DNA of 64,000 nt from Candidatus Poseidoniaceae archaeon (GCA_949373095.1 CASIBY010000003.1:171631-235630); one strand, 5' to 3'; shown: positions 51,447 to 64,000, counted from the stretch's first letter. The notes: generated by a model not told the origin, from the sequence alone. A program made the numbers and translations.

Positions 51447-52013
51447 ATGGCCGACAGTCCTATCACGATGGTTCAGGGAGGCGGAACGCTCGCTCAAACC
51501 GTTTTGGCTTCAGCACCAGAAGGAATGCTCATTGCTCCAGCATGGAAACGGGTTGCAGCGTTTATGCTCGATGTTGTGCTGATTAGCGTGGTCCTCTCAT
51601 TTGCTACTGGAGGACGACTTCTAGCTGCCCTGTTCAACATGAGTCTCCTTACCGCCGATGTAAGGACAGGGGCCTTTTTCGTTTTGAATTGGTTTGTGTT
51701 TCTTTCTTCTTTTTATCTCTATTTCAAGTACACCGGACAAACCATCGGGAGGTCACTTGCCCAACGCGGATTTCGCATCGCCATTGTTCATGACAATGGA
51801 ACGCTGCTTGAGCAACACCACTGGGGTCCACGAGCCATGGCCAAACTGATTTACCTCATTCCTGCTGTAGGATGGCTGTATTTCGGTCTTCGTGATGCTT
51901 ACAATGCCCAATCGTCAAAAGAAGAATATCGGACCAAGGTTGACCTCAAACACCATACTGTTGCGGCTGTAGATTGGTCCTTGCCGTCCGAAACTCGTTT
52001 CGGTCTTCGCTGA
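51447..52013 (+). CDS. RDD-family membrane protein
   Basis: The 188-residue protein has an RDD domain: PAWKRVAAFMLDVVLIS (the Arg and Asp of the signature), two more helices at about 75-115, and YTGQTIGRSLAQRGFRIAIVHDNG, typical of the loop after helix 2. A fourth helix (LIYLIPAVGWLYFGL) precedes a soluble tail. I start it at the ATG at 51447; upstream codons overlap the helicase. RDD proteins may be transporters or membrane organisers. A second RDD protein lies at 22841. Confidence 0.75.
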   Translation: MADSPITMVQGGGTLAQTVLASAPEGMLIAPAWKRVAAFMLDVVLISVVLSFATGGRLLAALFNMSLLTADVRTGAFFVLNWFVFLSSFYLYFKYTGQTIGRSLAQRGFRIAIVHDNGTLLEQHHWGPRAMAKLIYLIPAVGWLYFGLRDAYNAQSSKEEYRTKVDLKHHTVAAVDWSLPSETRFGLR

Positions 52014-52078
52014 ATTTTATCAATTTCAAGCATGCTATTGAAGTACAGCCACCTCTCAGTAGTGGTTGGTGAGAATGT

Positions 52079-52975
52079 ATGAGCGATGACCACAGCGCCC
52101 GAGCAGGTTCCCTGAATACTTCCCTTCAATCGGTTTCAATGGAGATTGATGATGATGATGAAGATATCATCATGGTCGTTGTAGAATTGACAAACGAATC
52201 TGCCATTCCAGTTGGGGGGTTATCTGCCGCTCTCGTGAGCGACAAAGGTCAACGGTTCGACCCCATCGACGGGATTAGTTCGATTGGACCTGGCTTAACT
52301 CGACAATTTAAGTTTGAAGCGTCTATTGATTCCGGTGAATGGACGTTTGAATTCAACGGAGGCGGCCATGCGATCTCGTTAGGCCCATATGCTGCAGATT
52401 TTGAATTTCAAGCTGACCAGGGCCGGAAGGTTGGCAACGCGATCGGTTCGAGTCTGTTCAGTGGAGCATTCGATAACCACCTAGATGACTTTGGTTCTAC
52501 AGAAGAACGTGGAATTATTGATGCTGGAACCATCGCGATGACTTCGTATTTTGGTGAAAACAGTGAAGGTGGGTCGACAAAGGTTGTCCTTGGCGAAGCA
52601 GGCAATGTAGAGGAAGAAGACGGACCTCGCAAACCGCCGTGGCAGAGCGAAAAGCCCACTGCTGCGGAGCCAGCAACGCCTCCTGCTACCAGCCCCGACC
52701 CGCTTCTTGCACCACTCACTCCACTGGCATCTGTAACACCACCAGTTGCCGAGCCTACTCCTGAGGCTGTAACTCCGCTTCAACCGCTCACAGTATCCGA
52801 GCCTGTGGAAGAACCAACACCCGCTCCAAAACCCGCCCCCAAGACAGCAGCAACCCCACCACCTCTCCCCACCTCTTCGAAAGCAACTTCTGGCCCTCCT
52901 AGCGGTCCACCGTCCGGTTCTCCTAGCGGTCCACCCTCCGGTCCTCCAAGCGGTCCACCTTCCGGCTCCTCCTAG
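52079..52975 (+). CDS. beta-sandwich protein with Pro-rich linker and GPPS-repeat tail, frameshifted in the repeat
   Basis: Residues 1-110 look like a beta-sandwich (EDIIMVVVELTNESAIPVGGLSAALVSD and onward), resembling an Ig-like or interaction domain. About residues 195-270 are a Pro/Ala/Thr-rich linker. The protein then enters GPPS tetrapeptide repeats, and the frame stops at 52975. The DNA repeat runs on well past this stop. Removing one base at 52966/52967 keeps the GPPS frame open to a TGA at 53172-53174, giving about 364 residues ending SGRPSRPDEL. The product is probably longer than the literal frame, unless slippage in the repeat truncates it in this strain. There is no signal peptide. 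Confidence 0.7.
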   Translation: MSDDHSARAGSLNTSLQSVSMEIDDDDEDIIMVVVELTNESAIPVGGLSAALVSDKGQRFDPIDGISSIGPGLTRQFKFEASIDSGEWTFEFNGGGHAISLGPYAADFEFQADQGRKVGNAIGSSLFSGAFDNHLDDFGSTEERGIIDAGTIAMTSYFGENSEGGSTKVVLGEAGNVEEEDGPRKPPWQSEKPTAAEPATPPATSPDPLLAPLTPLASVTPPVAEPTPEAVTPLQPLTVSEPVEEPTPAPKPAPKTAATPPPLPTSSKATSGPPSGPPSGSPSGPPSGPPSGPPSGSS

Positions 52976-53156
52976 CGGTCCACCTTCCGGTCCACCTTCC
53001 GGTCCTCCTAGCGGTCCACCTTCCGGTCCACCTTCCGGTCCTCCTAGCGGTCCACCGTCCGGTCCTCCTAGCGGTCCACCGTCCGGTCCTCCTAGCGGTC
53101 CACCGTCCGGTCCTCCTAGCGGTCCACCGTCCGGCCCTCCTAGCGGCCGACCGTCT
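52892..53156 (+). repeat. coding minisatellite of 12-bp units (Gly-Pro-Pro-Ser)
   Basis: About 22 units of the type GGTCCTCCTAGC or GGTCCACCGTCC alternate in 24-bp pairs. Units near the centre (about 53015-53130) are identical, while those at both ends carry substitutions. This is the usual sign of expansion and contraction in the middle of a tandem array. One unit contains a one-base insertion. Confidence 0.95.
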
Positions 53157-53183
53157 CGCCCTGATGAGCTCTGAGGTGATTAT

Positions 53184-53456
53184 GTGTCAGACGGATTTGC
53201 AATGGAACTTTGCGGCAACCAATTGGCCTGGAAAATTGTCCCAGAAGGCATTGATTCGGTGAATTTAGACAACGTAGGTTCTGCAATAGAGGCTTCAGGA
53301 TACATTGTCGAGGTCCGTTCAATGTTGTGTTGGACATTCACTGGTCCTTGTGACTTGACACTCTATCCTAGTGGAAAACTGTTGGTGAAATCGAAAGACA
53401 GAGAACTGGCCAATAATGTCGCTCGTCTTCATGTGACGCAGTGGGCTCTATCGTGA
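53184..53456 (+). CDS. small conserved-looking protein of unknown function
   Basis: This product of up to 90 residues has mixed strands and helices: GNQLAWKIVPEG, IVEVRSMLCWTFTG, CDLTLYPSGKLLVKSKDRELANNVARLHV. The shape (several beta strands, then one helix) is that of a small alpha/beta unit, and SGKLLVKSKDRELA recalls repeat-type DNA-binding folds such as the TBP half-fold, but I would not assign it. GTG at 53184 and ATG at 53202 are possible starts. It sits between the repeat protein and tsaC and is probably co-transcribed with both. Confidence 0.5.
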   Translation: MSDGFAMELCGNQLAWKIVPEGIDSVNLDNVGSAIEASGYIVEVRSMLCWTFTGPCDLTLYPSGKLLVKSKDRELANNVARLHVTQWALS

Positions 53457-53465
53457 GGGGACTCC

Positions 53466-54062
53466 ATGATCGGTGAACAAACGCTTCATCATCTTCGTAA
53501 CAACGGTGTCGTCGCCTATCCTACTAGCACACTTCCTGGATTGGCCTGTATGCCTACGGCGGAAGGGTTGGATGCACTTTTCACTCTAAAAAACAGACCC
53601 CGAGACAAACCCGTCAGCCTTGGAGTTCTTTCGTTAGAACAAGCCTCAACACTCGTTCATGTTGATGCTGAGATTCGTGAATTGGAAGCCTCTTTTCCGA
53701 AAGGGGGACTGACATTTATTCTCCTAGCACAGACTCCTCTAGACGAACGCCTTGGTGGTTCATTTGTGGCAGTTCGGTGTCTTGCGAACCCAATCGCTCG
53801 TGAGTTGGTTGCCGCAGTAGGACCGATTACAGCTACCAGTGCGAATGAATCAGGTGAAGAACCTCAAATGACATCAGAAGATGCAGGAGCTGAACTTGGC
53901 CTCATGCCGTTCGCAATTCTTGAGGGGGATTGCCCGGGTGGTTTGGGCAGTACAATCATCAAAGTAACAGATGGCGGAGATGCTGGCCGGGTGGTAACTG
54001 TTATGAGAGAGGGCGTTGTACCTAGACATGAAGTGGTTGAATGGTGGAAGAATCGCAACTGA
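53466..54062 (+). CDS. tsaC: TsaC/Sua5/YrdC threonylcarbamoyl-AMP synthase
   Basis: It makes threonylcarbamoyl-AMP from threonine, bicarbonate and ATP, the precursor used by KEOPS to form t6A37. VVAYPTSTLPGLAC, LKNRPRDKPVSLGVL (the KxR..KP signature) and ITATSANESGE are diagnostic. The 198-residue single-domain form is the short TsaC type. It overlaps the methionine aminopeptidase gene by 22 bases, so translation is coupled. The Pcc1 subunit that uses its product is at 17560. Confidence 0.92.
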   Translation: MIGEQTLHHLRNNGVVAYPTSTLPGLACMPTAEGLDALFTLKNRPRDKPVSLGVLSLEQASTLVHVDAEIRELEASFPKGGLTFILLAQTPLDERLGGSFVAVRCLANPIARELVAAVGPITATSANESGEEPQMTSEDAGAELGLMPFAILEGDCPGGLGSTIIKVTDGGDAGRVVTVMREGVVPRHEVVEWWKNRN

Positions 54063-55054
54063 AGTATTGGCGGGATGCAGGCCATGTTGCTCGCCGAACC
54101 TTGGAAGCCATGAAACTCGAATTGCAACCTGGTAAAACCTTTCATGAAATTATTGAATCTGCAGAACGCTTCATTCATCGGCACGGTGGAAAGCCTGCAT
54201 TTCCAGCAACAATTGCAGTGAACGACATGGCGGCACACTTCACTACGAATCACCTCATCGATGGTGTTGACGGATGGGATAACGACAATGTTTTGTCAAA
54301 TGGCGATTTGGTCAAAATTGATTTTGGAGTTCACATCAAAGGACACATCGGCGACAACGCTCTGACCATGGAAATCGGAAATTCAAACAACCACACTGAA
54401 CAAATTAAGGCTGCAAAAGAGGCTCGTGACGCAGCAGTTGAGATGCTTCATCCTGGAACGCCCTGGTACAAAGTTGGACAAGCTGCTGCTCAACCCTCTC
54501 TTGACGCAGGATTCCAACCGATTCGTAATCTATGCGGTCACCAACTCAAGCCTTGGGAACTTCACGCAGGAGTTTCTGTTCCATCCTATGCTTGTGGCAA
54601 AGACAATCAAGGATTTAGGGGGGTAGTCGAAGAGGGTTCCATTTACGCCGTAGAGCCGTTTAATACCACGGGGCCTTCAGGTATGATCGAGAACATTGGC
54701 TCTCCTCATTCTTCAAACATTTATCGCGTAACCGGACTTACCACGTCCAAGAAAGCGAGAGCCAAAAATCAGCTAAAGCCTCTTGGTGCCCAAATGGCTC
54801 GAAATTTCGAGGAGCGTTACTCAACACTTCCTTTTGCTGAACGCTGGGCCTTCCCTATGCTCAAGAAACCCTTCCCCGATGCTGATGAAGTTAGCCTTCA
54901 AAGCAAATGGAATGCACTCGTCAAGAAACTGATCAGCATACGCTTCTTGGAAACATATCATGTACTCCGTTGTAAGGACGGAGGCAACATTGCTCAATTC
55001 GAACACACGGTGCATGTTACCTCGGGTGGGCCTGAAATTTTGACCGTAGAATGA
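54041..55054 (+). CDS. map: methionine aminopeptidase, type II
   Basis: It removes the initiator methionine from nascent proteins. The five metal ligands are present: Asp94 (KIDFGVH), Asp105 (IGDNA), His167 (LCGHQL), Glu205 (YAVEPF) and Glu321 (QFEHTV). The roughly 65-residue insertion after His167 is the mark of type II enzymes of archaea and eukaryotes. The length of 337 is a little above archaeal forms (about 295), mostly through inserts in the last third. It shares a transcript with tsaC. Confidence 0.95.
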   Translation: MVEESQLKYWRDAGHVARRTLEAMKLELQPGKTFHEIIESAERFIHRHGGKPAFPATIAVNDMAAHFTTNHLIDGVDGWDNDNVLSNGDLVKIDFGVHIKGHIGDNALTMEIGNSNNHTEQIKAAKEARDAAVEMLHPGTPWYKVGQAAAQPSLDAGFQPIRNLCGHQLKPWELHAGVSVPSYACGKDNQGFRGVVEEGSIYAVEPFNTTGPSGMIENIGSPHSSNIYRVTGLTTSKKARAKNQLKPLGAQMARNFEERYSTLPFAERWAFPMLKKPFPDADEVSLQSKWNALVKKLISIRFLETYHVLRCKDGGNIAQFEHTVHVTSGGPEILTVE

Positions 55055-55413
55055 CGTTTAAACCACGGATTCCCCTTCAAAAACCAATATAAACCGTGAA
55101 ATCATGGGGTTACATGAACAGGGCTGTTGAAGTTCTCGTTTGAGTGCATCCCATCCCCTCCGCGTTTCTCTCACCCTGTTCACCTTTACTTCACCAATAG
55201 CCGTCAGGCTAGTTTCGTTATTTTCGCGGAAACCTAAGTCCTACAAATCATATGCTCCACTCGCTTGGCGCGGAAAACACCAAAAAGTAACATTTGAAGA
55301 AACCCCCTTTTTTGCTATTTTTAGGCTTCTACGCGAATTAAATAGACAATATTGTTTAATATGACGACGGCTGTGGTATCGTTACCCCCCGAAAGGGGAA
55401 GGAGGACAAAAAT
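55055..55413 (+). promoter_or_regulatory. pilin promoter and structured leader
   Basis: No gene is seen in this 359-base gap. TTTAATAT at 55355-55362 is a TATA-box candidate, which would place the transcript start near 55385. There the sequence forms a hairpin, CCCC-GAAA-GGGG (55387-55398), closed by a GNRA-type tetraloop, directly followed by GGAGG (55401-55405) nine bases before the ATG. The mRNA would thus begin with a hairpin and a strong Shine-Dalgarno, unlike the SD-less starts of most genes here. The rest of the gap is AT-rich without clear structure. Confidence 0.6.
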
Positions 55414-55929
55414 ATGAAAAATGAAAACCAAAATGAAGAAGCTGTCAGCCCAGTTATCGCTACCATCTTGATGGTCGCAATCACTGTTGTACTGGCTGGT
55501 GTGCTGTACGTATGGGCTAGCTCCCTTGCTGAAGGCAACACCGACGGAAACCTGACCTTGTACGTCTTTGACGGAGAGGACGCCAGTGGTGCACCAAGTG
55601 CAGCAACTGACGACAACCTTATCCGCATGTCAATGACCAAGGGAGAAAACATCAACTGGGCCAACCTAAAGGTCCAAATTGAAGTTGACAACGCTGCACC
55701 TGTTACCTGTGACAACCCAGGACAGGACTCTGGCGCTGTTTGCTTGTTGGTGCCTTTCGAAGGTGATGGCGGCCAATTCTGGTCTGTTGGTGACGGTGTT
55801 ACCATCCAAGAGAGCGGACAAGACCTTTGCGCTACTTCGTGTACCATTGACGTTGCCATCACGGACACCCGTGAAGGAACTGTCATTGACAACACCAACA
55901 ACGTTCAAGCAGAAGCAGACCAAGCTTGA
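55414..55929 (+). CDS. archaeal type IV pilin-like protein
   Basis: The 171-residue precursor has a short polar leader (MKNENQNEEA), then VSPVIATILMVAITVVLAGVLYVWA, the conserved hydrophobic segment of archaeal type IV pilins (residues 11-35). A Gly/Asp/Asn-rich, acidic domain with four Cys follows (CDNPG, CLLV, CATSC), which would lie outside the cell and could form disulfides. The prepilin peptidase and assembly ATPase are not in the window. Strong leader and terminator signals around the gene suggest high expression as a monocistronic mRNA. Confidence 0.9.
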   Translation: MKNENQNEEAVSPVIATILMVAITVVLAGVLYVWASSLAEGNTDGNLTLYVFDGEDASGAPSAATDDNLIRMSMTKGENINWANLKVQIEVDNAAPVTCDNPGQDSGAVCLLVPFEGDGGQFWSVGDGVTIQESGQDLCATSCTIDVAITDTREGTVIDNTNNVQAEADQA

Positions 55930-55968
55930 AGCTGGTCTAAGCCCTTAGGGCAACTGTAAGGACACTTC

Positions 55969-55988
55969 CACGTTTGATCACAAACGTG
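55969..55988 (+). terminator. upstream hairpin of a tandem pair after the pilin
   Basis: CACGTTTG (55969-55976) and CAAACGTG (55981-55988) form a perfect eight-base stem with loop ATCA. It is about 40 bases after the pilin stop and seven bases before the larger terminator hairpin. It may protect the mRNA 3' end or contribute to termination. Confidence 0.55.
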
Positions 55989-55994
55989 AACATC

Positions 55995-56033
55995 GCCTCC
56001 TCGTTGACTTCGGTCGGCGAGGAGGCCTTTTTT
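55995..56033 (+). terminator. strong stem-loop with T-tract ending the pilin transcript
   Basis: GCCTCCTCG (55995-56003) pairs perfectly with CGAGGAGGC (56018-56026) and is followed by a run of six T at 56028-56033, the layout of an intrinsic terminator. Archaeal termination depends mostly on the T-tract, so the stem may mainly stabilise the transcript. It overlaps the stop of the convergent glycosyltransferase gene at 56032. Confidence 0.8.
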
Positions 56034-57264
56034 AATTTTCAAATTCAACAATCATCGCTTCTCTAACATCGGCGTGTTGCTGCCACATGTGCAAAGAACG
56101 CCCACGTGCAGATGTGACCAGTGAGCGCATGAGTAGTTCCATGCTAGAGAGCCATTGGCCAAGTAACGAAAGTGGCCCTGAGGTTTTTCCACTCCGAGCA
56201 CGCCACCACAATCCAAGCATGATCGCTTCCATGGTGAATAGACCCATGTGGAGAGAGTTTGCGAGCGTAAAGGTAGCAGGCCAGCCGTAAAGACCGATAA
56301 AGCCCCAGCGCAATAACGCACTTATCGAGGCGATTCCAACTGCGAGAGGAGCGGTAATGTGAAAATGGAATTGGCGCTTCATGATTTTACTGAATACTCC
56401 ATGACGCCCACCTGCCCCATCCTTCCTTCTTCGAACCAACAGGCGCTGAAGTCCTTGCGCCCTTCGTATTTTTTGCCGACGTTGCTCGCTTGGTAGTTCA
56501 GGAGCAGCATCGTAAAACACAGCTTGGTCATCAACGATGACCCGCCACCCTTGGCAGCGAATTGCAGTAGCGATTTGTGCGTCGTCTGCATTTGCAGTCG
56601 CGTTGAGTTCACCAACGGGCAGCGTCTTTTTCCGCCACATCATGCATGAACCTTCCAAAAAGGGAGTACTATCAACGTAGGACTCCGAAACGCGCATGTT
56701 TTCCCACATTGCCCGGTGTCCAAGTTCCTCTTCCCGAGCGTTCGTTCTCTGAGGTAGAGCCCCCACTGCACCGATCATAGGGTCAGAAAACCAATCCATC
56801 AATCGTCTTAGAACGCCTCGACCAAGTCGGGCATCTGCGTCAGTCATACAGACCAAGCCATCGTTCGTATCTTGGTTGAGGTGATTGAGTGCACGGATGA
56901 CGGCTGAAGTTTTTCCTTCACGCTGTTCCATAACCAATACTTCTGATGTTGTAAATGCATTAGGATGGCCTTCGAGCCATTTTTTCGCTAACTCAACGGT
57001 TCTATCATCCGAGGCCGAGTCGATGAGGAGTAGCGAGCAGGAAGCCGACTGTTTGGCCAAATCATCAAGTTTTTTCTCAATGATTCTCGCTTCATTCCAC
57101 ACCGGCAAGAGTACTGTGAGCGGTATTTCCTCTTCAGAGGGTTGAGGAACGTGTGTTTCTGCATGCTCAACCGTCCATTTGTGCATGTTCCATCGGTGCA
57201 ACCCGAACGGTACGATGGCAGCCAGTAAAGCAACGCCTTCTACAACGGCTGGTATGACGACCAT
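56032..57264 (-). CDS. membrane glycosyltransferase, GT2 family
   Basis: This processive-type GT2 protein starts with a hydrophobic segment (residues 1-22) and continues with VLLPVWNEARIIEKKLDDL, LLIDSASDDRTVELA, the DAD motif in MTDADARLGRGVLRRL and the acceptor-side block QRRQKIRRAQGLQRLL. Two or three helices follow at about 300-375. The length is 410. I use the ATG at 57264, because starting at 57387 would overlap the divergent transferase by 18 bases and put a charged stretch before the first helix. The sugar donor is unknown. Confidence 0.82.
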   Translation of the reverse strand: MVVIPAVVEGVALLAAIVPFGLHRWNMHKWTVEHAETHVPQPSEEEIPLTVLLPVWNEARIIEKKLDDLAKQSASCSLLLIDSASDDRTVELAKKWLEGHPNAFTTSEVLVMEQREGKTSAVIRALNHLNQDTNDGLVCMTDADARLGRGVLRRLMDWFSDPMIGAVGALPQRTNAREEELGHRAMWENMRVSESYVDSTPFLEGSCMMWRKKTLPVGELNATANADDAQIATAIRCQGWRVIVDDQAVFYDAAPELPSEQRRQKIRRAQGLQRLLVRRRKDGAGGRHGVFSKIMKRQFHFHITAPLAVGIASISALLRWGFIGLYGWPATFTLANSLHMGLFTMEAIMLGLWWRARSGKTSGPLSLLGQWLSSMELLMRSLVTSARGRSLHMWQQHADVREAMIVEFEN

Positions 57265-57369
57265 GATGGCTTGAATGCACCTCTGCCCTTGATATCTCCC
57301 CTTCTTTATTGGCGTCTTTACGGTATTTTGAGCCGTTAGGTCTTCATCCGATGACCAACTGGCCCAACC

Positions 57370-58350
57370 ATGCCTAAGGTCCTCCATATCGGTCCTTGTG
57401 ACTCACCTGGAGGCATGGCGAATGTCATGCGAACACTGGCTGAGTATCCCCCTGAAGGATGGGATGCGGACTTGCTTTCATCTCATGTTGTTGGCTCTCC
57501 TTGGGCGAAGTGGCGAGCCTATCGCCGCGCACGAAGCGCTTTGTCAAAAATGCTGAGTGATGAAAATCGTCGGCCAGATATCGTTCATCTTCACACCGCT
57601 GCTGACTGGTCTTGGTGGCGCAAGACTAAATTTCTCAAACTTACTCATAAAAAGAATGTAGGATGCGTTATACACATACATTCCGGTAGATTTGATTCAT
57701 GGCTAGAAAATAAATCTAGAATATTCAAACAGAATGTAAGATTAATTCTTTCAGGTAATAACACTAAAGTGGTTGTCCTTTCTAAAACCTGGACGAAATT
57801 ACTCGAGAAAGATTTGGGGGATTTAATCGCGATTTCTAATCCATTGAATCCGAAATACAATCAAATTGAGAGGAAGAACACTCAGAATCATCTCTTATTG
57901 TTAGGTCGAAAAGATCCTGTGAAGGGGCATAGTTTTGCTGTAACTGTTGCCCTTGAATTGAAGAAAACGTTTCCTGACCTTGTGATGACTATGACAGGCG
58001 TGGAGGAATCTGATAAGGATTGGATTAAGGCGAGAGGATGGGTTACAGAAAAAGAAAAACTGGAACTATTGAGTGCTGCGAGCGTCCTCTTGTTACCATC
58101 TAAATTTGAGGGACAACCAATGGTGGCAATAGAGGCCTTGGCGAGCGGATTACCGGTTGTCGCAGATTCCCGCCTGCATTCGCTACCTATGGAAGTGATT
58201 CATGCAGGACCAAGCATAGAATCGTGGTGTGAGGTTGTGACCAAAGCACTTGAACATCCACAATCGGTTGATTTTAACTGCAGTAGTTTCGATGTTAGAG
58301 CAATTGGAAAGAAGTGGAAAAGCGTTTATGATTCATTGATTAACCCTTGA
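57370..58350 (+). CDS. GT-B fold glycosyltransferase (GT4-like)
   Basis: The 326-residue product has an N-terminal half with GPCDSPGGMANVMRTL and DIVHLHTAADWSWW, and a C-terminal nucleotide-binding half with LLLLGRKDPVKGHSF and the EX7E-type region SKFEGQPMVAIEALASGLPVV, typical of GT4. Base composition changes within the gene: the first 250 bases are GC-rich like the core genome, the rest is AT-rich. It overlaps the 3' end of the convergent transferase by 25 bases. Confidence 0.85.
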   Translation: MPKVLHIGPCDSPGGMANVMRTLAEYPPEGWDADLLSSHVVGSPWAKWRAYRRARSALSKMLSDENRRPDIVHLHTAADWSWWRKTKFLKLTHKKNVGCVIHIHSGRFDSWLENKSRIFKQNVRLILSGNNTKVVVLSKTWTKLLEKDLGDLIAISNPLNPKYNQIERKNTQNHLLLLGRKDPVKGHSFAVTVALELKKTFPDLVMTMTGVEESDKDWIKARGWVTEKEKLELLSAASVLLLPSKFEGQPMVAIEALASGLPVVADSRLHSLPMEVIHAGPSIESWCEVVTKALEHPQSVDFNCSSFDVRAIGKKWKSVYDSLINP

Positions 58351-59441
58351 ATCGCGAGGTCCAATTCAGCGACGCTTCCGTCCCATGAGTAATGTTCTTC
58401 GGCAAATAATCTTGCACGATTTGACAATGAACTGAGTTCTTTGAAACGGAATTGTGTCAACCATTCAATGCTCTTCTTGTGAAATTCTTGTTGCGGAAAG
58501 AGCTTCATCCACTCCATTTCATTGTTGGATACTTGGTGGCCTGCGTGCTTGATCCCTAATATTAGAAGACCAGATGCTAGGTATTCGCTTCTTTTTAGAG
58601 GACTGGCGATTTTCCAAACCTTAGATTCTGGCATTGGAAGAAGTCCAATGTGTTGTAATGAAAGTATTTTCGCAACCTTGGCATGCTCCATCCTTGGGTG
58701 AACTTCCATCCAATTGAATTTTTGTTCCATAGTTTTGAGGGCCTGATACGCATCACCTTCTCCGATGAGTGTGAGTTTCGAAGCGACACCATTTGAATTC
58801 AATTTCTGGACCAACATTGGAAGAGATAAAACTCCTCTGTGTTTATCAAGACGCCCATGATATACTAAACGCCAACCATCGCTCAACTTATTTTCATCCA
58901 CCTTATTAAAAAGCTGGAGATCTACACCTGCTGGCAACACGTGAATAGACGAAGATTGGATTGCGAATCTATCCTGAATGAATTTTGAATGTAAATTTGA
59001 AACGACACATCCCCGTAAAATAGTCTGATTTTCTACCAATTTCCATGACTTTTTCCATTCTCTCCACTGAATACGAGCCAAGAAAGACACATCTGCGGGA
59101 GGTGAACGATCCATGAGAATCATGGGCCATCCAAACGATAAGAGGAGGGGTGCGACTCTTGAGGCTATTTGCCAGTCTAATATCACTGCATCGACATCGG
59201 ATGGGTTGTGTTCTTTGAACCACTGAACTGCGGCGCGAGCTAAACTAATCGCCTTCAGCCCCCTTATCGATGATTGTTCCAATTCGATGTGCTTCCATTG
59301 GCTTGAAGAAGTGTTTAGAGGTGATTTAGGCCCTAAAACTGTAACAGAATGGCCTTTCAAAACCAATCCCTCAGCCAATGCAACAGTTGTCGTAGAACAT
59401 AAATCACCGATTTGGCGCACGGTAACCCAGTAAATTTTCAT
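58326..59441 (-). CDS. GT-B fold glycosyltransferase (GT4-like)
   Basis: This 371-residue protein has a GT4-type layout: an N-terminal glycine-containing acceptor domain (VALAEGLVLKGHSVTVLGPKS), then LVYHGRLDKHRGVLSLPML and ESKVWKIASPLKRSEYLASGLLILG in the donor domain, with the Glu-containing element partly degenerate. It lies four bases after the epimerase stop, so the two are one operon. The AT-rich codon use resembles that of its neighbours and not the core genes. Confidence 0.8.
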   Translation of the reverse strand: MKIYWVTVRQIGDLCSTTTVALAEGLVLKGHSVTVLGPKSPLNTSSSQWKHIELEQSSIRGLKAISLARAAVQWFKEHNPSDVDAVILDWQIASRVAPLLLSFGWPMILMDRSPPADVSFLARIQWREWKKSWKLVENQTILRGCVVSNLHSKFIQDRFAIQSSSIHVLPAGVDLQLFNKVDENKLSDGWRLVYHGRLDKHRGVLSLPMLVQKLNSNGVASKLTLIGEGDAYQALKTMEQKFNWMEVHPRMEHAKVAKILSLQHIGLLPMPESKVWKIASPLKRSEYLASGLLILGIKHAGHQVSNNEMEWMKLFPQQEFHKKSIEWLTQFRFKELSSLSNRARLFAEEHYSWDGSVAELDLAIQGLINES

Positions 59442-59445
59442 GAGA

Positions 59446-60373
59446 TCACTGTCCGTTTGTCAGCCTTGTAAGTTTCAAAATAGAATCTTCAAAATTAAAT
59501 TCTGGCTTCCATGATATCATTGAGCGTAAACGCCCATTACTTCCACATGAATGGAAAATGTCACCTTCTCTTGGTTCTTCAAACAGGCAGTTTATCTCTT
59601 GGTTTGTTTTGTTCAGACCCTTGGTAATAATGCTCACAATATCCAAGATTGAATGCTCTTTTTCTGTACAAACATTAGCTACGGAGTAGACATATGGAGC
59701 GTCCAACTCAAGTAATTTGATTATCGCTCCCGCAACATCATCCACATGTATGAAGTCCCTTGTCTGTTTCCCACTGCCATAAATGGTTGGATTTTTCCCT
59801 TGAATCATTAAATCTAAAAATTTTGGAATCACTGAAGCATACGAATTGTCTGCACTTTGGCCCGGTCCGTACACATTGAAAAATCGGAGCGCAATGCTGT
59901 TTAATCCTAAATTTCGAAACAGATCGACTTGATTTTCATTTTCCCATTTACTTTCAGCGTAGGGGGATATACAATCCCCCGCAGCATCTTCTTTTAGGGG
60001 CAACGAAGCAACCCTCCCATAAACGGCAGCGCTGGACGCAACAATCACTTTATCCACACCAAATTTACGTGATGCTTCAAGAATGATTTGAGTTCCTTCA
60101 ACGTTTATGCTATGGGTTTTTTCAGGATCGGCGAAAGAATCAGGTACTGAAATTTGCGCCGCTAGATGGACAACTGCCTCACATCCACTAAGAATGTCCT
60201 CGACCGTACCTTTGTCTCGAACATCACCCTGTATGAACTTGATTTTCGGGTGGATTTGTGGATGTTGAGCAACAAGATCCAATATATGAACATCCCAACC
60301 TGCGTGTGCAGCTGTGTTCGCAACATGTGCGCCAATGAACCCAGCCCCCTCCCGTGATGAGTACTTTCGCCAT
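59446..60373 (-). CDS. NAD-dependent sugar epimerase/dehydratase, frameshifted near the N-terminus
   Basis: This is an extended short-chain dehydrogenase of the GalE/RmlB group. HLAAQISVPDSF, SSAAVYG, SPYAESKWENE (catalytic Tyr and Lys), RFFNVYGPGQ and TRDFIHVDDVA are conserved. Read literally, the frame opens at 60282 and lacks the NAD-binding start. Upstream, from an ATG at 60371-60373, the sequence encodes MAKVLITGG and, after removing one C from the run at 60345-60349, AGFIGAHVANTAAHAGWDVHI, which completes the Rossmann motif. The corrected length is 308 residues, standard for the family. The indel lies in a homopolymer, a common place for sequencing error. Confidence 0.85.
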
Positions 60374-60423
60374 ACTTCAGCGTCAGCTCTTTCCCATCTT
60401 AGGTTTTCTAGACAAATGATCTC

Positions 60424-61842
60424 ATGAACGGGCGAAAATCAAAGTCCATGTTGCACACCGGTTGGACTGTAGGAGGATACGCCATGGTCACTAGTTTGAT
60501 GAGACGATGGAAAATACGTCGCCTCTATAATCGAAAACGATGGAGGCATGCTCGGCGGTTATGTGAACATGAATTGGAAACCCAAAATCATGATTTTGCG
60601 ACCGACATAATCGTTCGCTCACTCTATAATGAAGGTCTTTGGAAGCCATTGATCGACTTCACTGAACAATACCCTCGAGCTGATTACAAGATTTACGCTC
60701 AAAAGGCCCAGAGAAAATTAAACCAAGCACGCGAGGAAGCCGAAGGCATTCCAGAGCCGAAGAACAAGAAGCCGTGGAACGTGTCAGATTTGCTATCTAA
60801 TTGGACTCAAGAAGAAAATCGCTTGTGGCTTCGCCACCCATGGGGTTGGGCGCATTGGGACATGCCTGAAGGTTACTTGCTGAACGATACCCATCCGGCT
60901 CTGCTCCATTTGGCACTCGAAGTTCTCCTGTTTCCATGGGTACCTGAAACCAAACATTGGGTTGTTGAGCAACGGATGCCAGGGGCGAACAATTCGCTCT
61001 CTTATTCAGGAGGGGTTGATTCAACCGCTGCCATGTTGTTGCTGCCTAAGGACACCATTTTGGCTTACCATGAGCGAAATTTCACATCAATGTTGAACCA
61101 TTCTCTTCCTCATTCGACCTTTGAGGCTATTGAGAAGCGAACCGGCCGATCGATTCTTTGCATTCCTTCAAATCATGAAAAGATTCGAACTCATCATGAG
61201 TTGCAAACAGGCTTTTCATCCGCCAATGCAGCATGTGTGCATCTTATCCTCCTTGCTGATCATCTCGATCTCTGCTCAATTTCATTTGGTACGGTCATCG
61301 AGAATACTTGGTTGGAAAAAGGACTCAAGTTTCGGGAATTTCAAAATTCCTATTATTGGAACCATTGGCCTAAGAAGTTCGAGAAAGCCGGGTTATCCTA
61401 TGTTTTGCCCATCAATCACATTTCTGAAGCTGGCGCATTGAAGATTTGTAACCAGAGCGTGTTCGCCGATGTTGTTAATTCGTGCCTTCGAGGGAATGGA
61501 GATCGCTGGTGTGGGACTTGTTGGAAGTGTTTTCACAAGAATGGGCCGCTTGGGCGAGAGATTGACGCAACAAGCAAAGAGATTTCCACCTACCTCAACA
61601 AGAAACCACTTCGTACGGCGCAACATGCATTGTGGGCATTAAAAATTCAAAATTTAGAACACCTTGCTCCTCACCTGATTGAACACATTGCAGACGACTT
61701 ATCATGGTGGGACAAGGCATACGAACCAGGCCTGAACCTGATCGAAGAACCATTGAGGTCCATTGTCAGGGAGAAAACCGAATCCTACCTTGAATGGATG
61801 GCCGAACCTTATGCGTTGTTGAATGTTGACTTGGACATGTGA
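60424..61842 (+). CDS. QueC-like PP-loop ATPase with long N-terminal extension
   Basis: The 472-residue product has an N-terminal helical region (about 1-185) of unknown role. A PP-loop nucleotide-binding motif follows, SYSGGVDSTAAMLLLP, with SGGVDS at 195-200. A cysteine set Cys354-x8-Cys363-x2-Cys366-x2-Cys369 (SCLRGNGDRWCGTCWKC) follows, the spacing of the zinc site in QueC (7-cyano-7-deazaguanine synthase). True QueC is about 230 residues and sits with queD/queE. Here the neighbours are glycosyltransferases, so the enzyme more likely activates a carboxylate or amide on a surface-glycan precursor. A partial paralog begins at 63217. Confidence 0.7.
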   Translation: MNGRKSKSMLHTGWTVGGYAMVTSLMRRWKIRRLYNRKRWRHARRLCEHELETQNHDFATDIIVRSLYNEGLWKPLIDFTEQYPRADYKIYAQKAQRKLNQAREEAEGIPEPKNKKPWNVSDLLSNWTQEENRLWLRHPWGWAHWDMPEGYLLNDTHPALLHLALEVLLFPWVPETKHWVVEQRMPGANNSLSYSGGVDSTAAMLLLPKDTILAYHERNFTSMLNHSLPHSTFEAIEKRTGRSILCIPSNHEKIRTHHELQTGFSSANAACVHLILLADHLDLCSISFGTVIENTWLEKGLKFREFQNSYYWNHWPKKFEKAGLSYVLPINHISEAGALKICNQSVFADVVNSCLRGNGDRWCGTCWKCFHKNGPLGREIDATSKEISTYLNKKPLRTAQHALWALKIQNLEHLAPHLIEHIADDLSWWDKAYEPGLNLIEEPLRSIVREKTESYLEWMAEPYALLNVDLDM

Positions 61843-63227
61843 AACCTCCAAACAAACCTTTGCTACGTTCTCGTTGCCCAAACATCAAGAAGTCAAGAGG
61901 TCAGGCGCTAGATATGGATGAGGCGGACCAGTTTGAGGCATCATCCTCAATAGGGCCGTCCGAAGAATCGCTTCGAAAGAAAGTCAAACGGTTGGAGCGA
62001 GAACAACGCCGCCTTCGAAACACCGTTTCTTTTCAACTCGGTTTCCATCTTACTAGGGCTGTTCGGCGACCGTGGCGGCTATTTGCCCTACCGATAACGT
62101 TCCCGCTGTTGGCGTTCAAACTCGGGTTGCAACGCCTTGGCAAGCGTCCACTGATGCTTTCTGATTCGGTTGTTGTCGAGGACTTTGCCGAGAGAAAACA
62201 CAGTATCGTTCTCTTTCCTACAAACGGTGTTGGGTTCGGCCATTTCACACGGATGTATGCCGTCGCTCGCGCACTACGAAAGGCCGACCCAGATCTTGAA
62301 ATCGTGTTTTTCACGCCTATGCCCACCCTCCATGTGCTATACAATGAGAAGTTCCCAACTTACCATCTCGCAGGAGGTTACATGCATAAGGACATGACTG
62401 CTTCTCAATGGAATGGGTTGGTTGAAGACATGCTGCATTTAGTGTTTGAGACCCATCGGCCAAAATGGTTCATGTTTGACGGTGCTTTTCCCTACCGTGG
62501 AATGCTAAACGCCATCGCCTCTCAGCCCACCATGGAAAAGTGGTGGATGAAGCGCGGTTCAATGAAGTCAAGCACGTCTACTCCTGTCGACAGTGCTTCT
62601 TTCTTTGAGGGGGTTATCGTGCCGAGCGAAGGTAAAGCGGTGAACTCAGACGCGGGCCAACACATCGTGCCGCCCATCCGAGTCATGGACTTTGAAGACG
62701 TTTGGGACCGAGCCTACGCCCGCTCCCGCTTGTCGGTGCCCGATGACGCCAAAGTCGTCTACGTTCAACTGGGCGCAGGGCGTATTAACGACATTGAAGG
62801 GGTGTTAAATCGGGTGCTTGAGGGGCTGTTTTCACACGAAAATGTCCACGTGGTGCTTGGGGAATCCATGTTGGGAGAGCGTCTTGACGTGCACCACGAG
62901 CGTCTGCGCGTGATTCGTGATTACCCCAATTCGCTTTACATCGAAGGCTTTGATGCGGCCGTTCAGGCCGGCGGCTACAATTCCTATCAGGAGATGCGTA
63001 CATTTGGGGTGCCCACCTTGTTCATTCCCAACACCGATACGGGCATGGACGATCAAGTCAAGCGATGCCAGCAAGCCGAAGAAGAGGGGTGGGGGTTGGT
63101 TGTCTTGGAGCCGCATGTAGCGGCTCTTGGGCAAGGAATTGAGAAATTGCTCACCATTTATCCACCCCCAATAGACCCTGAAGTCAACGGCTCGAACAAT
63201 GTCGCTCATCTCTTGCTTAACTCTTAA
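61839..63227 (+). CDS. MurG-like GT-B glycosyltransferase
   Basis: After a charged, coiled-coil-like N-terminus (about residues 40-65) and a short hydrophobic stretch (about 80-100), the 462-residue protein shows FPTNGVGFGHFTRMYAVARAL, a glycine-His motif like that of MurG and UDP-glucuronosyltransferases. A C-terminal donor domain follows, with YVQLGAGRIND, GFDAAVQAGGYNSYQEMRTFGVPTLFIPN and a Gln-rich QVKRCQQAEE. Archaea have no murein, so the acceptor is another lipid-linked glycan. The GTG at 61839 overlaps the PP-loop gene stop; an ATG at 61914 is an alternative. Its last third is clearly GC-richer than its neighbours. Confidence 0.75.
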   Translation: MKPPNKPLLRSRCPNIKKSRGQALDMDEADQFEASSSIGPSEESLRKKVKRLEREQRRLRNTVSFQLGFHLTRAVRRPWRLFALPITFPLLAFKLGLQRLGKRPLMLSDSVVVEDFAERKHSIVLFPTNGVGFGHFTRMYAVARALRKADPDLEIVFFTPMPTLHVLYNEKFPTYHLAGGYMHKDMTASQWNGLVEDMLHLVFETHRPKWFMFDGAFPYRGMLNAIASQPTMEKWWMKRGSMKSSTSTPVDSASFFEGVIVPSEGKAVNSDAGQHIVPPIRVMDFEDVWDRAYARSRLSVPDDAKVVYVQLGAGRINDIEGVLNRVLEGLFSHENVHVVLGESMLGERLDVHHERLRVIRDYPNSLYIEGFDAAVQAGGYNSYQEMRTFGVPTLFIPNTDTGMDDQVKRCQQAEEEGWGLVVLEPHVAALGQGIEKLLTIYPPPIDPEVNGSNNVAHLLLNS

Positions 63228-64000
63228 GCAAGGTCATTAATGTGTGTACGTTTTTTCGGTGTTGAGGCGTATTGAGATGTTCTGTGAAATCTTGTTCAAT
63301 CATTCGCCATTGATCTGCCTCTTTCATTTCTGGGAGATAGGTTCTCAATTGCTCGAGAACATGCAACCTGTACTTAGGAGGGACCAGGTTTATCGCCGGT
63401 GGATAAAATGCATCAAGGTGCTTTAGTGAATATGTTGAAGCAACTAGGCGGTTGAACAACACATCGAGCGTTGGACCCCGCTTAATTTTATTCAACGCCC
63501 ACCCCAACACATTTTCGTGAGAGATGAATTCTGCAGAGAGTTTGCTCACAACTTCTTTTGATTGAAGGGATTTTAGGAATTGGTGTTCACTGAAATCCGT
63601 TTGATTGATGCCGTGTTCAATCAATTGCTTTCGAAAACACTTCCAGCAATTGTCGCAGGTTTGAGGCCAATCACCGCGTATACAAGAACGGGCCATTCCT
63701 CTGTAGGGCGAGCGATGAACGATGGTACTCGTGCCGACTTCGCTCACGCCTGCTACGGGCAAGAACAACGGCAAACCAGCGGCTGAGAACAAAGGGGCCC
63801 AAACTTTGTAATGGGGTGACTCAATATAATCGCGAGATCTTTCGTGCCCAATTCGATAGGCCGATTCCATCACGGTGCCAAATCCAACGGAATCAAACTG
63901 AAAGTGGGAGGCAAGAGCCAAGACCGGAATCCCCGTCGCCAAATCTGTTGGAAACCCAACAGGGTTCCGAATGAATTCAACATCCGTGCTGATAGCGATG
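63217..64000 (-). CDS. QueC-like PP-loop protein, partial (5' end outside the window)
   Basis: The frame is open to the last base of the window and must begin beyond it. The visible 260 residues align with the C-terminal half of the protein at 60424-61842: GFGTVMESAYRIG against SFGTVIENTWLEK, LPVAGVSEVG against LPINHISEAG, and the zinc-type set C-x8-C-x2-C-x2-C (SCIRGDWPQTCDNCWKC). The PP-loop itself would lie upstream and is not seen. It converges on the MurG-like gene with an 11-base overlap, so the two paralogs face each other across that transferase. Confidence 0.7.
   Translation of the reverse strand, partial: IAISTDVEFIRNPVGFPTDLATGIPVLALASHFQFDSVGFGTVMESAYRIGHERSRDYIESPHYKVWAPLFSAAGLPLFLPVAGVSEVGTSTIVHRSPYRGMARSCIRGDWPQTCDNCWKCFRKQLIEHGINQTDFSEHQFLKSLQSKEVVSKLSAEFISHENVLGWALNKIKRGPTLDVLFNRLVASTYSLKHLDAFYPPAINLVPPKYRLHVLEQLRTYLPEMKEADQWRMIEQDFTEHLNTPQHRKNVHTLMTLLKS

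Follow-up and report, generated by a model that had tools for sequence, protein, structure and literature searches.

PP-loop enzymes act by adenylating an oxygen atom of their substrate, which may be a carboxylate, amide or lactam, after which AMP is displaced by a nucleophile. In a 2026 survey, the offshoots of the QueC family comprise tRNA, defence, cofactor and NASAT groups; the survey places NASAT in the QueC superfamily and does not mention DUF6395 (PMC13329287), a family that is likewise unmentioned in the literature library that we searched. NASAT is a PP-loop enzyme of O-antigen loci with a zinc tetracysteine (PMC10607449), and WbpS is a uronamide synthase of the AsnB type (PMC7468200). 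Here we examine a 64,000-nucleotide stretch of DNA from a Candidatus Poseidoniaceae archaeon (hereafter the window), which covers C3:171631-235630 of a 1.87-Mb genome in 26 contigs. Two of its genes, at 60424 and 63217, flank a gene for a glycosyltransferase of family GT28 and encode members of DUF6395 (PF19932), a Pfam family with no assigned function. An earlier note on this DNA described them as QueC-like proteins that bracket a MurG-like transferase, and suggested an undescribed ATP-dependent amidation or related step.

The reading that we favour, with a probability of roughly 0.45, is that DUF6395 proteins carry out ATP-dependent amidation of a glycan uronic acid. Their PP-loop class and glycan role are well supported; we infer the carboxylate target, the amide product and the action of each clade on one residue.

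Conserved architecture of DUF6395 proteins

Both window proteins score well above the gathering cut-off of PF19932 (Table 1), as part of a family whose model is matched by all 78 relatives at E 0.01 or better. The model spans roughly the last 150-170 residues, comprising the knuckle and the C-terminal helices. Because it leaves out the PP-loop, the PP-loop/zinc architecture is not apparent from annotation. The 60424 protein, which represents clade A, consists of an N-terminal helical region, a PP-loop ATP-pyrophosphatase domain, a four-cysteine knuckle and a helical C-terminal region. The 63217 gene, which represents clade B, runs off the window, but its full frame of about 460 aa can be followed at C3:234850-236226, where the next contig stretch supplies its own PP-loop, SGGMDS, just outside the window. 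Thus, the SGGxDS loop and the C(x)8CxxCxxC motif, arranged as in QueC, are present in both genes, and the motifs noted earlier for 60424, as well as the cysteine spacing noted for the partial 63217 gene, are borne out.

In an alignment of the 78 relatives, the PP-loop is present in 77 and the four knuckle cysteines are invariant in all, the first interval being x8 in 64 of them and x9 in the remainder. The C-x8-C-x2-C-x2-C spacing arose in 0 of 15,600 composition-preserving shuffles which, together with the invariance of the cysteines, excludes a chance origin of the motif. The invariant columns (60424 numbering) include G197, D199, S200, A202, R218, E252, R255, G263 and S353, followed by C354, R356, C363, C366, W367, K368, C369, F370 and K372 in and around the knuckle. 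Judged from sequence, the basic residues R218, R255, R356, K368 and K372 would fit an anionic substrate, either phosphorylated or carboxylated. The distance from PP-loop to knuckle is mostly 156-160 residues, compared with 176-177 in Bacillota QueC. We infer that the bound metal is zinc.

Two further, distant PP-loop-like proteins carrying GGG[LI]DS occur near glycan loci, one without the knuckle (L011:65-1180) and one with a variant of it (L079:11181-12404), and possibly represent a fourth, diverged clade.

Predicted fold

AlphaFold2 predicts the structure of the 60424 protein with confidence (predicted local distance difference test, pLDDT, 93.7), and likewise that of a clade B protein sharing 96% identity with the window's (pLDDT 90.7). 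The best match of the 60424 model in the PDB by Foldseek is QueC (3bl5; probability 1.00, E 0.004, template modelling score 0.65 on the target). The clade B model is matched best by GMP synthase and then by MnmA/TrmU, TilS, TtuA and LarE, all of which are PP-loop enzymes. No PDB structure match of either model passes E 0.001. The assignment of DUF6395 to the PP-loop ATP-pyrophosphatase class is firm. Of the QueC likeness described earlier for both proteins, the fold match is upheld for 60424, but the clade B model matches PP-loop enzymes generally rather than QueC, and the label 'QueC-like' is supported chiefly by the knuckle together with a single model. GMP synthase is an aminating PP-loop enzyme, and we count its place as best match of the clade B model as support for amidation.

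A sequence search of the PDB with DUF6395 returned a marginal PP-loop match to argininosuccinate synthase and nothing else, and the same kind of search found no meaningful match for the GT28 protein. Profile-profile comparison of DUF6395 with PP-loop families gave short, uninformative PP-loop matches to GuaA, NadE, ThiI, LarE and Poseidoniales QueC, and the sole stretch aligned with Bacillota QueC is the knuckle region.

The presence of MnmA, TtuA and LarE among the clade B matches could also be read to mean that the knuckle binds an iron-sulfur cluster through its four cysteines and that DUF6395, like these enzymes, inserts sulfur into a sugar as a thioamide or thiocarboxylate. However, the spacing and position of the cysteines are those of the QueC zinc site, and the recurrent neighbours include no recognised sulfur-carrier gene, making this improbable.

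Profile and motif tests for known families

The QueC profile PF06508 matches neither window protein and gives only 4 weak matches among the 78 relatives (best E 0.0014). Moreover, the QueC catalytic motifs YxQxHxxE, VPxRN and YPDC (PMC13329287) are each found in 0 of the 78 DUF6395 proteins, whereas control Poseidoniales QueC sequences carry all three in 13 of 13 cases. Among the neighbours, as judged from homology clusters and from profile searches of a selection of them, glycan genes stand in place of queD, queE, queF or tgt. QueC-profile matches occur in 58 of 60 Poseidoniales genomes, where nearly all are strong, full-length QueC proteins at other loci; in one single-contig genome, for example, true queC and DUF6395 are far apart, at 1.28 Mb versus 2.05 Mb. 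In the window's own genome the sole PF06508 match is GuaA, and the lack of queC is attributed to the genome being incomplete (82%). The separation from deazaguanine genes noted earlier is thus upheld, and a QueC or deazaguanine role is rejected on profile, catalytic motifs and neighbourhood alike. That DUF6395 proteins are QueC paralogs in archaeosine or defence-related deazaguanine metabolism, as only the shared PP-loop and knuckle spacing would suggest, is accordingly very hard to credit.

The four-cysteine zinc motif has been called a hallmark of QueC, yet it is missing in 13 of 13 Poseidoniales QueC proteins examined (from L116-L135, L139 and L140), which keep the PP-loop and the three catalytic motifs.

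The QatC/Cap9 defence families fare no better as a home for DUF6395. None of the 78 members has a PADLOC profile match, on which ground a defence role is rejected, and the QatC knuckle C(x)19CGxCxxRR was not found in DUF6395. Pfam searches with DUF6395 proteins return DUF6395 only, with neither the N-terminal glutamine amidotransferase nor the asparagine synthase domain of AsnB-type enzymes.

A NASAT/WbpG-like conversion of a sugar N-acetyl group to an acetamidine merits comparison since NASAT, as noted above, also combines a PP-loop with a zinc tetracysteine, is encoded in O-antigen loci (PMC10607449) and lies within the QueC superfamily (PMC13329287). However, the NASAT profile TIGR03573 gives no match up to E=1, and the NASAT motif CxxC-Xn-[GN]xCxxC ahead of the PP-loop is present in 0 of 78 relatives. 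Membership in NASAT is rejected on both counts. Among 97 related genomes, NASAT is above cut-off in only one, and that genome lacks DUF6395. We therefore regard acetamidine formation as distinctly unlikely.

A conserved glycan neighbourhood centred on GT28

The transferase between the two DUF6395 genes is the conserved partner of the family. The window protein scores only 13.8 bits against Glyco_tran_28_C (cut-off 22), but its Bacillota homologs above that cut-off are 37-39% identical to it, and the homologs in L073 and L067 (37-38% identical) reach 42 and 48 bits. These scores against the GT28 C-terminal domain support the transferase assignment. It is not MurG proper, as the window protein has 10 bits against TIGR01133, for which the equivalog cut-off is 250. 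Among the 97 relatives, GT28 is found in 18 of 24 genomes with DUF6395 and in 2 of 73 others (p = 1e-12), and a nucleotide-sugar dehydrogenase is found in 19 of 24 and 20 of 73, respectively (p = 1e-5; 0.003 within the family), figures that overstate the sample size because related metagenome-assembled genomes are not independent. The dehydrogenase association is weaker than that with GT28 and partly phylogenetic. Where DUF6395 occurs without GT28, the genome mostly carries it on a short contig or close to where a contig breaks off.

The neighbourhood set comprises 76 named loci and the locus of the window's own genome, and locus contents were counted in the 27 loci of at least 15 kb. GT28 is present in 26 of these, a nucleotide-sugar dehydrogenase (UGD) in 23 and Wzm/Wzt in 20. 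Where a clade A gene has a downstream gene, this is GT28 on the same strand in 17 of 20 cases, and the upstream neighbour is a divergent short-chain dehydrogenase/reductase (SDR) epimerase in 20 of 27. Downstream, 24 of the 27 clade B genes that have a neighbour there are convergent with GT28; upstream, 22 of the 28 that have one adjoin an SDR epimerase (13) or WecB (9). Thus, the placement of a MurG-like transferase between the pair in surface-glycan loci, as first described for the window, is conserved across relatives. Similar neighbours surround 16 further members that could not be assigned to A or B. One SDR beside a clade B gene scores best to TviC, the UDP-GlcNAcA C4-epimerase. WecB, the TviC-like epimerases and the dehydrogenase make up a route to N-acetylhexosaminuronic acids.

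In the window (Table 1), the GT2, GT4, GT4-like and SDR epimerase genes agree with the glycosyltransferase and epimerase neighbours initially reported. The 60424 and GT28 genes overlap by 4 bp, and the GT28 and 63217 genes are convergent with an overlap of 11 bp. WecB of the window's own locus is above its equivalog cut-off. The contig stops after Wzt/Wzm, and the glycan locus probably continues on contig C11, which opens with UGD fragments.

Table 1 Features of the DUF6395 locus in window coordinates
Feature	Position	Strand	Details
DUF6395 clade A gene	60424..61842	+	472 aa; PF19932 70.8 bits, gathering cut-off 25
PP-loop SGGVDS of 60424 protein	61006..61023	+	motif
Metal knuckle C-x8-C-x2-C-x2-C of 60424 protein, CLRGNGDRWCGTCWKC	61483..61530	+	motif
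GT28/MurG-like glycosyltransferase	61839..63227	+	462 aa; conserved DUF6395 partner
DUF6395 clade B gene, C-terminal 260 residues	63217..63999	-	PF19932 151.1 bits
Metal knuckle C-x8-C-x2-C-x2-C of 63217 protein, CIRGDWPQTCDNCWKC	63637..63684	-	motif
SDR epimerase, GalE/TviC-like	59446..60282	-	divergent from clade A gene; in the assembly its N-terminus falls in another frame
GT4-like glycosyltransferase	58326..59441	-	profile search
GT4 glycosyltransferase	57370..58350	+	profile search
GT2 glycosyltransferase	56032..57387	-	profile search

The N-terminus of the epimerase (MAKVLITGG..AGFIGAHV) is divided over two frames at window positions 60282-60390 and is intact in the closely related locus L040; the split reflects either an assembly error or a recent frameshift. 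The same genome has a second, parallel locus on contig C5 (L010, C5:228000-245999), with the order A, GT28, methyltransferase-like, GT28-like, C, Wzt/Wzm, where C denotes DUF6395 fused to a glycosyltransferase. Its flanks share 66-74% DNA identity with window positions 52000-64000, in rearranged order, and it stems either from an old duplication or from a relative binned together with this genome (a strain or species mixture). A conserved methyltransferase-like protein of about 175 aa (L010:11056-11577 and homologs, 12 loci) often lies between the GT28 and C-type genes; the L010 copy has no Pfam match and the L086 copy no NCBIfam match. A low-complexity repeat array occupies the end of contig C5 (L011:1204-1736).

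Proposed function

Uronate amidation is favoured because the chemistry of the PP-loop class coincides with recurring genes for N-acetylhexosaminuronic acids, in which the carboxylate at C6 stands out as the acceptor. In this scheme, DUF6395 would adenylate that carboxylate, either on a UDP-sugar or on a lipid-linked glycan just after transfer of the uronate by GT28. An amine, most simply ammonia, would then displace AMP to yield a uronamide, a course that parallels the first half of the QueC reaction. Each of the clades A and B would act on a different uronate residue, and the metal knuckle would be structural. The amidation step suggested earlier is therefore strengthened by the link to uronic-acid genes, with its chemistry still conjectural, but the kind of step is not new because NASAT/WbpG (a PP-loop enzyme) and WbpS (AsnB type) are precedents.

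Several observations weigh against uronate amidation. Five loci also encode an amidotransferase of the AsnB type, a known type of uronamide synthase, and so DUF6395 may do something else there. Uronic-acid genes are common in glycan loci, and hence linkage gives context rather than the reaction. Most loci show no dedicated ammonia-supplying partner, and the DUF6395 gene of Nonomuraea is isolated, with no obvious glycan genes nearby.

The amine could also be organic, in which case DUF6395 would be an amide ligase that joins the carboxylate of the uronate to an amino acid, a polyamine, an amino sugar or a protein. Threonine is amide-linked to N-acetylmannosaminuronic acid (ManNAcA) in methanococcal N-glycans, and WecB beside clade B implies this same sugar. 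In addition, the QueC relative QatC is proposed to link the carboxylate of a deazaguanine to the N-terminus of a protein (PMC13329287). The fold does not distinguish ammonia from larger amines, however, and no consistent amine-activating or carrier gene adjoins DUF6395, and we therefore judge such coupling rather unlikely.

Evolution and spread

A tree built by a quick method, with support from SH-aLRT (the Shimodaira-Hasegawa-like approximate likelihood ratio test) only, splits clade B, including Bacillota and Actinomycetota sequences, from clade A and the C type grouped with it, with 100% support on each side. Because A and B fall in separate clades, the pair is not a recent tandem duplicate; the two are ancient paralogs on either side of the GT28 gene. 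Fusion to a glycosyltransferase is seen in either order: the transferase domain is N-terminal in archaeal C types and, judged from sequence, C-terminal in Glycomyces.

Bacillota sequences are nested among archaeal B sequences and lie in compact cassettes: UGD-GT28-DUF6395 in Alkalithermobacter and, on a single strand of a plasmid, UGD-GT28-GT28-DUF6395 in Priestia megaterium. In Oceanirhabdus and Halobacillus, methyltransferase-GT28 fusions precede DUF6395 and UGD is adjacent or in the same locus, with DUF6395 and UGD adjacent in Oceanirhabdus. Only the centre genome of a sample of 399 Bacillota genomes was positive above cut-off, and DUF6395 is therefore rare in this phylum. Two IMG/VR contigs of about 222 kb, apparently from the same virus, encode DUF6395, UGD and a TviC-like epimerase in one run without GT28. 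DUF6395 was absent from the phage records searched. The run in the putative viral contig of 223 kb (L153:4695-7607) has a short nucleotide-sugar dehydrogenase and is surrounded by apparent glycosyltransferases and sulfotransferases.

Records labelled Deltaproteobacteria (L051), Opitutia (L058) and Gammaproteobacteria (L098 and L100) carry Poseidoniales-type loci. L098 is near-identical to Poseidoniales L097, and the genome of L051 has a Poseidoniales-type QueC. All four are probably mislabelled or contaminated Poseidoniales and were left out of the bacterial evidence.

A broader proposal is that DUF6395 proteins are unrecognised PP-loop/zinc carboxylate ligases dedicated to GT28, which would form amide bonds linking uronic acids to amines, among them possibly amino acids or protein, in glycans of cell surfaces and in those encoded by viruses, and which would spread as a cassette between archaea, bacteria and viruses. 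We regard this as doubtful in its full extent.

Implications and comparison with known systems

Poseidoniales are abundant archaea of the surface ocean with, to our knowledge, no cultured representatives. If uronate amidation is correct, the uronic acids of their variable surface glycan can be amidated and charge-neutralised, and surface sugars gain a second PP-loop route to amidation. The reading also gives a Pfam family without known function a testable role and a specific partner transferase, and the same cassette in cultured Bacillota makes the reading testable there.

Among described systems, WbpS and related AsnB-type synthases likely share the product proposed for DUF6395, a uronamide in a surface glycan, but WbpS has an N-terminal glutaminase domain and DUF6395 proteins have no such domains by Pfam. 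QatC and Cap9, which are anti-phage proteins, resemble DUF6395 as repurposed versions of a QueC-like fold. NASAT/WbpG/WbuX (TIGR03573; PDB 8WEX) shares a PP-loop with a tetracysteine, surface-glycan loci and a proposed ATP-dependent sugar amidation, although its cysteines (CxxC..CxxC) precede the PP-loop, its target is an N-acetyl group and its profile does not match DUF6395. QueC (PF06508; 3BL5) has the same order of PP-loop and C-x8-C-x2-C-x2-C, is the best PDB match of the 60424 model and, in its ATP-dependent carboxylate amidation, provides the model chemistry. Unlike QueC, DUF6395 proteins stand outside its profile and its catalytic signature, have extra N- and C-terminal regions and keep company with glycan genes.

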